Part shown: positions 51,823-53,747 of the stretch, piece after piece
Position numbering within the stretch: position 1 is the first letter of the stretch
Layout: each line of letters starts with the position of its first letter
Assembly (NCBI GenBank): GCA_944372095.1
Contig: CALVYG010000001.1
Coordinates: 1-64,000 of the forward strand
DNA: 64,000 nucleotides
From: an uncultured Clostridia bacterium
GTDB taxonomy: Bacteria; Bacillota; Clostridia; Christensenellales; DTU072
Direction: 5' to 3'
Made by a program: the position numbers and the translations under genes
Notes under the pieces: model-generated
What the model was told of the DNA's origin: nothing
The model's database searches: none
The model's input: the letters and a program-made list of their open reading frames with translations, nothing else

Positions 51823-52518
51823 TCAGCTGTTTTCAAAATATGCGACAACTCCGTCGTAGAGCGAATAGACGAATTTATCCAGGTAATCCTTATTACATAA
51901 AAGTTCTTCGTCCTGAGGATTGCTCAAAAAGCCGCATTCGACGATAACCGAAGGCGCGTGGGTGCAGTTAAGCATAAAATATTCGCCCGGCAACGCGTCG
52001 AACACTCTCCCTACGTTCGCGGCATTAAGCGAGTTTATGCAGCCTTGAAGAATATCCGCAAGTATTCTTCCCTCTTCGCTCAAATCGTTGAAGAACACCT
52101 GAGCACCTCTTCTGTCCGACGACGGGAACTTATTACAATGAATACTTAAAACCATATCGGGTTCGGATTTTTCTATAATATTTTTTCTTCTCGTAAAATC
52201 TTCCTGCTTAAAACTTCCCGCTTCATCCGCTCCGTCGTCCGTCGTACGCGTCATAACGACGAAAAATCCGGCGTCTTCAAGCAAATCTTTCAGCATAAAA
52301 GAAATTTCGAGATTCTTATCCGCTTCCTCTGTGCCGTTTTTCCCGACGACGCCCCTGTCGCTTCCGCCGTGCCCGGCGTCAATTACTATCACTTTCTGCC
52401 CGACGGAAGCCGTTTTGCTTTCCGCGACGCAAATCCCGCCCGCTATTGCGCACACCGCTACCGCCGCTATGATAATCAATGCTATTATTATCGTTTTTTT
52501 CTTCAAAACTATAAACAT
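51823..52518 (-). CDS. N-acetylmuramoyl-L-alanine amidase (Amidase_3, CwlD-like)
   Basis: 231 residues with one N-terminal membrane/signal segment (TIIIALIIIAAVAVCAIAGG). The zinc ligands and catalytic Glu appear as VIDAGHGGSDRG, a Glu in EADKNLEIS, SIHCN and VIVECGFLSN. The enzyme cuts the amide between muramic acid and the peptide stem outside the membrane. The size resembles CwlD, which makes spore-cortex muramic lactam. No other sporulation gene is nearby, so a vegetative role is possible. GGAGGG precedes the ATG. Confidence 0.92.
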   Translation of the reverse strand: MFIVLKKKTIIIALIIIAAVAVCAIAGGICVAESKTASVGQKVIVIDAGHGGSDRGVVGKNGTEEADKNLEISFMLKDLLEDAGFFVVMTRTTDDGADEAGSFKQEDFTRRKNIIEKSEPDMVLSIHCNKFPSSDRRGAQVFFNDLSEEGRILADILQGCINSLNAANVGRVFDALPGEYFMLNCTHAPSVIVECGFLSNPQDEELLCNKDYLDKFVYSLYDGVVAYFENS

Positions 52519-52991
52519 TTCACCCTCCGATTTTCGGCATTTGCCGCCGATTTTTATTTCACTTTATTTTTTCCGCTTTACCCGCTCCCGTTTTTAAGCC
52601 TCTGCGTTCAATTCCCGCTCCGTTTTTCCCTCTTGCCTTTTCCTCTTCCTACCCTGTTAGGGGTTCCTTTTTGCTGTCTGAAAACGGTTTTTTTACATTT
52701 GTAACAATTTTCAACAGAGTTATCCACAAAGTTATCCACATTAAATTTATTGCTTGTTTTTTGCGTAATTCTTGCATATTTATGCGAATTTATGCTTATT
52801 TTCGGTTTACTCTTCCTCTCTTGTCTTTTAATATTGTGGATAACTTCTCTCTTATTCACATTTTTTGCAACTTTGGTCGATTTTTGTCGAACGTACTTTT
52901 TGCCTTATCCGTTTTCTGCGGCTTTACCGTACACCCAAAACGCCTTGCACGGCTACCTTTACATACTTCCGTTTCGGGATATTGCGCATTT
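52519..52991. other. 473-bp non-coding region with four DnaA boxes around an AT-rich core
   Basis: TTATCCACA occurs at 52720-52728 and 52732-52740 (plus strand) and at 52835-52843 (minus strand). TTATTCACA, which also fits the TTATNCACA consensus, is at 52852-52860. The roughly 95 bp between the pairs is AT-rich (TTAAATTTATT, TTTATGCGAATTTATGC). The first 150 bp is a pyrimidine-rich stretch without features. This looks like an origin-type or DnaA-titrating region. There is no dnaA, dnaN or rpmH nearby, so the assignment is open. Confidence 0.6.
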
Positions 52992-53747
52992 TTATGCACC
53001 CTTTATTAAGAAAAATGCCGCAATTCCGAGTATGGCGGTATATATCGAAAACCACGCCGCTTTGTCTTTTTTCAACACCGCCACAAACGTCTTTATGGCG
53101 GCAATCCCGACGCAGAACGCCACCGCCATTCCCAGAAATACTCCGCCGTTTACGGCTGTTCTTTCCGTATTCGTGATTATCTCCACCGCGCTTGAAGCTA
53201 TTATCACGGGGATTGACAGTAAAAACGACATTTCCGCGCTCTCTTCCGCATTGACTCCGCAAAGCCTCAACGCCGTTACCGTCGTTCCGCTGCGCGATAT
53301 TCCGTTTATGCACGCTATTCCCTGCGCCAGTCCCACTATCGTGCTCTTTAATCCGGTTTTATTATCAAGCGCGCTCTCTTTCGGCTTGATTATTTTAGGC
53401 AGAATTAAAATCATAGACGTGAGTATAAAGCAAAAAGGCAAGGCGTTTGCCGTCTGGTCGGTAAAATATCTTACCAACGCGGCGATTATCCCCGTAGGGA
53501 TACTCGCTATCAATATCATCTTCACGCGCGCGTCAAGCGGGTGCCTGATAAGATACAGAAGCCGTTTGCGATATACCGCTATTACCGCCGCAAGCGTTGC
53601 AAGGTGCAACATCAGATTCGTCATAAGGTCGGGTTTTCCTACCCCGAGCGATTCGAGAAGCATCAGATGTCCGCTGCTCGATATCGGCAGAAATTCGGTA
53701 AGTCCCTGTACCAGTCCCAATATAAATCCGCTTAAATATTCGTTCAT
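52992..53747 (-). CDS. uppP: Undecaprenyl-diphosphatase
   Basis: 251 residues with about eight membrane helices. The two active-site motifs are EFLPISSSGHL and INGISRSGTT, diagnostic for UppP/BacA. It recycles undecaprenyl diphosphate for peptidoglycan and glycan synthesis and gives bacitracin tolerance. It is divergent from ychF with 85 bp between. No strong ribosome site is seen. Confidence 0.96.
   Translation of the reverse strand: MNEYLSGFILGLVQGLTEFLPISSSGHLMLLESLGVGKPDLMTNLMLHLATLAAVIAVYRKRLLYLIRHPLDARVKMILIASIPTGIIAALVRYFTDQTANALPFCFILTSMILILPKIIKPKESALDNKTGLKSTIVGLAQGIACINGISRSGTTVTALRLCGVNAEESAEMSFLLSIPVIIASSAVEIITNTERTAVNGGVFLGMAVAFCVGIAAIKTFVAVLKKDKAAWFSIYTAILGIAAFFLIKGA

Follow-up and report, generated by a model that had tools for sequence, protein, structure and literature searches.

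Clustered DnaA boxes upstream of a CwlD-like amidase gene in the order Christensenellales suggest a link between chromosome replication and cell-wall cutting

A cluster of DnaA boxes in an uncultured Clostridia bacterium was found upstream of a CwlD-like amidase gene, and across much of its order the same boxes are concentrated directly 5′ of this gene. In our view, the cluster probably serves as a regulatory region at which DnaA binds and sets the transcription of the amidase gene according to the state of replication. Such a cluster before the gene of a wall-cutting enzyme suggests that these bacteria tie cell-wall cutting to chromosome replication. How Gram-positive bacteria coordinate replication with the growth of their wall and the separation of their cells is an open question, and order-wide boxes before one peptidoglycan amidase are a candidate direct wire from the replication initiator to a wall hydrolase.

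The DnaA-box cluster and its neighbouring genes

The window, i.e., the whole stretch of 64,000 nucleotides that was analyzed, contains the four DnaA boxes that an earlier sequence-only reading had noted, all within 141 bp between uppP and the amidase gene, which are oriented in the same direction (Table 1). Read towards the amidase, the double box is TGTGGATAACTTTGTGGATAA. There are six TTATNCACA sites in the window, four of them inside the 141 bp, whereas 100 dinucleotide-preserving shuffles of the window had 1.37 on average and never more than 5. The whole genome (1.81 Mb in 55 contigs) has 75 TTATNCACA sites, from which a Poisson estimate gives about 2 × 10^-6 chance clusters of four in 141 bp; the density is thus above chance, as had been claimed. 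The motif TTATCCACA occurs 28 times in the genome and the reversed motif 4 times. The AT-rich core noted earlier is also real, the GC content of the 2-kb bins of the window being 0.40 to 0.48. A second non-origin cluster was observed on another contig of the same genome (G000:C14, L004 7745-7794). It consists of three direct TTATCCACA with spacings of 20 and 21 bp between two divergent genes, and it lies upstream of one that we take to be phenylacetate-CoA-ligase-like.

Table 1. Features of the uppP-amidase region (positions in the 64,000-nucleotide window)
Feature	Position	Strand	Remarks
CwlD-like N-acetylmuramoyl-L-alanine amidase gene (Amidase_3, 231 aa), presumed target	51823..52518	-	domain/family match
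Double DnaA box, two direct TTATCCACA	52720-52728, 52732-52740 (span 52720..52740)	+	gap 3 bp
AT-rich spacer, double box to inverted box	52741..52834	.	94 bp, GC 0.27
Inverted DnaA box TTATCCACA	52835-52843	-	103 bp from 52732, start to start
DnaA box TTATTCACA	52852-52860	+	as TTATNCACA, in this genome alone among 9 genus loci
TTTGTCGAA, match to Spo0A (0A) box TGTCGAA, candidate second regulator site	52883..52891	+	sequence match
uppP (undecaprenyl-diphosphatase)	52992..53747	-	upstream neighbour of the cluster in host genus and sister genus

The best NCBIfam match of the window amidase is TIGR02883 (CwlD, a germination-specific amidase), with which it also has the Amidase_3 domain in common. 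The score of 172.4 bits is below the curated cut-off of 221.55 for this equivalog, and we call the protein CwlD-like. Its DxGHG motif is located about 45 residues from the start. The sequence-only reading had named the amidase gene and uppP, and not dnaA, as the neighbours of the cluster. This is borne out by the genome, in which dnaA and dnaN are located on another contig (G000:C13), and their junction carries three TTATCCACA. The DnaA of the genome has both the PF00308 domain and the C-terminal DNA-binding domain PF08299.

Conservation in the genus and family

The uppP gene was found in nine of the ten genomes of the genus, and all nine loci carry a box cluster beside it. In seven of the nine, the start-to-start spacing of the inverted pair is 102-104 bp; G001 has six boxes, and G003 has a different box order. 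The UppP proteins of the other eight genomes are 46-52% identical to the window copy, which indicates that the boxes were kept while the remaining intergenic DNA drifted. Among 40 genomes of the family, the pattern TTATCCACA-N(84-106)-TGTGGATAA was found in nine, always at this locus, and control matches numbered 0. Two of the three genomes of the sister genus have a longer spacing or a variant box that falls outside this pattern.

In the family as a whole, uppP was found in 13 of the 40 genomes, and boxes are present at 12 of these 13 loci. The 13th (G039) has neither a TTATNCACA downstream of uppP nor, beside this gene, an amidase of the cluster. All 17 amidase loci examined in the family of the window have boxes. 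Several loci of the family f1 (L047-L049 and the genus loci) also have in common a motif like TTAGGGATACCTT between the boxes and the amidase start, shortly before the latter.

Association of the boxes with the amidase gene across the order

When named genomes were scanned with an exact three-box pattern, 104 loci were obtained, of which 32 have dnaA in the same stretch, seven are the uppP-amidase locus, and one is an amidase without uppP beside the boxes. At this last locus, L123 (Clostridiales bacterium SIG375), six boxes stand directly before an Amidase_3-like gene with a plain DAGHGG motif, and no uppP was found in the stretch. The amidase was then searched for in the order with TIGR02883, which matched in 133 of 151 genomes at E <= 1e-30 and not in the remaining 18; none of the 151 passed the curated cut-off. 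The best amidase locus was read in each of the 133 genomes (33 families), with second copies, present in 11 genomes, set aside. The DNA on either side of the DxGHG codons (-2000 to +2000) was divided into successive 500-bp bins, in which TTATNCACA numbered 0, 1, 2, 149, 1, 3, 7, and 2. The peak of 149 is in the -500 to 0 bin, upstream of DxGHG, where four permuted control motifs gave 0. For TTATCCACA alone, the same bins held 0, 0, 2, 125, 0, 1, 4, and 0. One box or more was found within 600 bp upstream in 71 of the 133 genomes, representing 21 of the 33 families.

The remaining 62 amidase loci have no TTATNCACA within 600 bp upstream, and they include all sampled members of f11, f15, f18, f22, f28, and f31. 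Sites matching looser motifs numbered 17 in these 62 loci, with 7.4 expected. On a quick amidase tree, the box trait is clustered, with 21 changes compared with 44.2 in shuffles, and strongly supported branches force at least 7 changes. The trait is therefore old, with repeated loss or gain. In G066 (L203, f28), four TTATCCACA in the same direction were seen 1.2-1.4 kb downstream, not upstream, of the amidase.

The upstream neighbour of the amidase varies, forming 43 sequence clusters among 69 loci. Together with the boxes at the amidase of L123, where no uppP was found, this indicates that the boxes track the amidase and that uppP is incidental. We had considered uppP as the linked gene, and it was rejected on these grounds, on its having been found in 13 of the 40 family genomes, and on the box-less uppP locus of G039. 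The upstream neighbour is divergent in 45 of the 69 loci, and in single genomes the boxes could also serve that gene. The suggestion of the sequence-only reading that the cluster may be a DnaA-controlled promoter for the amidase is strongly supported by this order-wide association, the regulation itself being predicted.

A class-wide sample gave 51 genomes with an amidase match, of which the 30 best-scoring loci were read. Among these 30, only two had boxes, one each, which is not above background. The sample takes in true CwlD genes, with 19 of 60 genomes above the TIGR02883 cut-off.

Resemblance of the sites to DnaA boxes

In an unbiased 8-mer enrichment of the regions upstream of the amidase, the top words were GTGGATAA (140 observed, 2.3 expected) and TATCCACA (128 observed, 2.8 expected), both of which are pieces of TTATCCACA. 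One-mismatch variants were enriched at position 3 (T 32 vs. 10 and G 22 vs. 2, the second figure of each pair being from a flank 6.2 times larger) and were tolerated at position 5. This degeneracy is as expected of a DnaA box. Direct pairs with a 3-bp gap were found in one orientation in 12 families and in the other in 3, and the pair at 52720/52732 of the window is such a double box. Box pairs 2-3 bp apart are described as preferred by Escherichia coli DnaA in vivo (PMC11317965). Order-wide, 39 of the 151 genomes carry the exact double box, at 45 places in all, and 23 of the 45, with coordinates compared by eye, are at this amidase. Of 11 other places examined, six are at dnaA and two are beside genes that we take, from the look of the sequence, to be recG-like. 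The exact double boxes beside a recG-like gene in G112 and G146 (L409 and L410) belong to f32, a family mostly without boxes at the amidase; the gene is perhaps another lineage-specific DnaA target.

These results also bear on whether TTATCCACA is read by a regulator other than DnaA or whether the inverted boxes form an RNA structure, which we consider quite improbable. In favour of these readings, 17 of 30 genomes are without consensus DnaA boxes near dnaA, another word, TTTATGCA, is enriched as well upstream of the amidase (36 vs. 2.5 in shuffles), and in the host genus pairing of the inverted boxes over about 94 nt would be possible. Against another protein reader, the variability seen at positions 3 and 5 fits DnaA, as do the 3-bp double box and the clustered form, the same TTATCCACA is found at the dnaA-dnaN junction of the genome itself, and six of the 11 non-amidase double-box loci examined are at dnaA. 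As to RNA, the orientation of the boxes differs among genomes, which leaves no common hairpin, and a search of the window with Rfam gave 0 hits, so a non-coding RNA was rejected.

The spacing of boxes on the same strand was analyzed for helical phasing with 17 family-spacing pairs (spacings above 12 bp). The Rayleigh test gave p of about 0.003 at a period of 10.5 bp and 0.0001 at 10.0 bp; this is suggestive only, because periods were scanned and the families are related. Curved DNA was rejected as a feature of the spacer. Of the 11 spacers, 7 had an AA/TT periodicity of 10-11 bp at p < 0.05, but 11 of 22 flanks of the same length had it too, compared with 12 of 150 low-GC background pieces. 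It is thus a property of the whole intergenic region and not of the spacer between the inverted boxes. The amidase upstream regions of the 21 families provide a motif-rich natural data set on DnaA-box spacing in promoters.

Possible roles as a displaced origin or in DnaA titration

A strong cluster of DnaA boxes distant from dnaA need not be an origin. The sequence-only reading had suggested a displaced chromosomal origin, with which the arrangement of boxes around AT-rich DNA would agree. Of the two marks of an oriC that we considered, a box cluster with AT-rich DNA was found at the locus, and a switch in the sign of the GC skew was absent. The skew is negative in all thirty 4-kb bins of the 117,785-base contig, with no switch at 52.7 kb, nor is there a switch at the orthologous loci of G008 and G009 or at the amidase loci of G071, G103, and G114. 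In six relatives (G071, G103, G114, G008, G010, and G003), the skew switches sign at dnaA or close to it, and on C13 a weak skew minimum was seen about 10 kb upstream of this gene. The amidase of G071 is 579 kb away from dnaA. A displaced origin was rejected on the skew, and we give it next to no probability. The earlier reading had also stated that its case would fall if the skew minimum and a denser box cluster lay next to dnaA and the region was not conserved in relatives. The part concerning skew came true, and the part concerning conservation proved false, given the boxes at nearly all uppP loci of the family.

The dnaA loci of the order were inspected as well (L307-L332, L001, L029, L032, and L033). 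At 17 of these 30, the DnaA ATPase match has no exact TTATNCACA closer than about 1.5 kb, which could be taken in favour of an origin elsewhere. It also means that the consensus of the box was not borne out at most origins of the order, a point against the reading as DnaA-controlled promoter. The boxes of those origins may be degenerate or some kb away, and the skew places the origin near dnaA where it was read.

Another explanation is that the cluster titrates DnaA or switches its nucleotide, and in this manner times initiation, while the amidase merely adjoins it. The locus does resemble titrating clusters in having dense consensus boxes outside the origin, and deletion of six such clusters in Bacillus subtilis is described as leading to early initiation (PMC5295017). 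Eleven of 30 genomes have the amidase and dnaA on a single contig, and in eight of these the locus is 8-75 kb from dnaA. However, the distance varies: the ten values at hand are about 8-10 kb (three genomes), 24-25 kb (three), 59 kb, 73 kb, 206 kb (G103), and the 579 kb of G071. Some lineages keep the locus near the origin, like the known origin-proximal DnaA-box clusters, and others do not, and the link to the gene persists. Titration would not require a site to remain beside one particular gene, yet the boxes stay with the amidase while its neighbours change, and in many genomes their number is down to one. We therefore regard titration as the main function as unlikely, although it deserves to be kept in mind. 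The DnaA reservoir of the sequence-only reading may coexist with a promoter role; what it leaves unexplained is the tie of the boxes to one gene.

Predicted control of the amidase gene by DnaA

The locus has three features expected of a DnaA-regulated promoter, i.e., boxes above chance upstream of the gene, conservation of the boxes with the gene, and a DnaA with its DNA-binding domain. DnaA, probably best in its ATP form, would bind the double box and the nearby inverted boxes cooperatively. The bound protein would set amidase transcription according to the state of replication, and the outcome would be a coupling of replication to peptidoglycan hydrolysis. The reading predicts occupancy of the boxes by DnaA in vivo and a response of transcription, and its purpose would presumably be to time peptidoglycan cutting to replication.

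In the window, the boxes precede the start codon, at 52518, by about 200-340 bp. Order-wide, the median distance from the beginning of the nearest box to the DxGHG codons downstream of it is 239 bp, which, if the position of DxGHG in the window protein is taken for all, puts this box about 100 bp before the start codon in a typical genome, closer than in the window. These distances are consistent with either activation or repression. In B. subtilis, DnaA is described as a direct activator of sda and an apparent repressor of ywlC, vpr, and three operons (PMC4447404). As most direct targets reported there are repressed, we lean slightly to repression at the amidase, by analogy.

A CwlD-type amidase is a sporulation enzyme in other Clostridia. 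We see about an even chance that, in much of the order, DnaA directly times peptidoglycan hydrolysis; the CwlD-type amidase would have become a cell-cycle gene under DnaA, and perhaps Spo0A, and the DnaA-binding sites in its promoter would be among the best that the chromosome has.

Promoters controlled by DnaA are already known, and it is the amidase target and the breadth that appear new. The B. subtilis targets described in PMC4447404 (sda, ywlC, vpr, yyzF-yydD, trmE-noc, and ywcI-sacT) likewise have non-origin box clusters upstream of genes. The target here is a wall amidase, linked to the boxes in 21 families of one order; the words 'cwlD' and 'amidase' are absent from the main text of that study. 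The double boxes of E. coli (for example, those of mutH/DARS2, polA, and purH) are similar in having two boxes with a 2-3-bp gap, and there they are bound in vivo. The regulon outlined in that report comprises nucleotide synthesis, replication, repair, and RNA metabolism, and the outline names no wall amidase (PMC11317965). The DnaA-box clusters of B. subtilis and the datA and DARS sites of E. coli are also off-origin and, as described in PMC5295017, can bind much DnaA; the present clusters differ in being tied to one gene through much of the order. In Staphylococcus aureus, WalKR couples wall hydrolases with dnaA. As presented in PMC10746227, WalR regulates dnaA and autolysins, whereas in the present case it is DnaA that would control the hydrolase. 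In the open-licence PubMed Central literature, our searches brought up no study that connects DnaA with CwlD or with this amidase.

Putative Spo0A boxes and other words upstream of the amidase

A putative Spo0A box is located between the DnaA boxes and uppP (Table 1). It matches the consensus TGTCGAA given in PMC5295017. The word TTGTCGAA is enriched upstream of the amidase order-wide (18 vs. 1.5 in shuffles), TGTCGAA was found there in 25 genomes of 14 families, and a Spo0A gene is present in 17 of 18 genomes searched, including this one. Spo0A may therefore act at the amidase promoter too. In the oriC of B. subtilis, Spo0A boxes are described as overlapping DnaA boxes in part (PMC5295017), which makes dual control of the amidase promoter by Spo0A and DnaA plausible by analogy.

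The word TATAAT was not enriched over shuffles upstream of the amidase across the order. A promoter scan of the window gave one promoter-like site, with 1.1 expected, and no -35/-10 elements were placed. The second enriched word, TTTATGCA, is present upstream of the amidase in 13 families, and in the window it lies at about 52780-52795.
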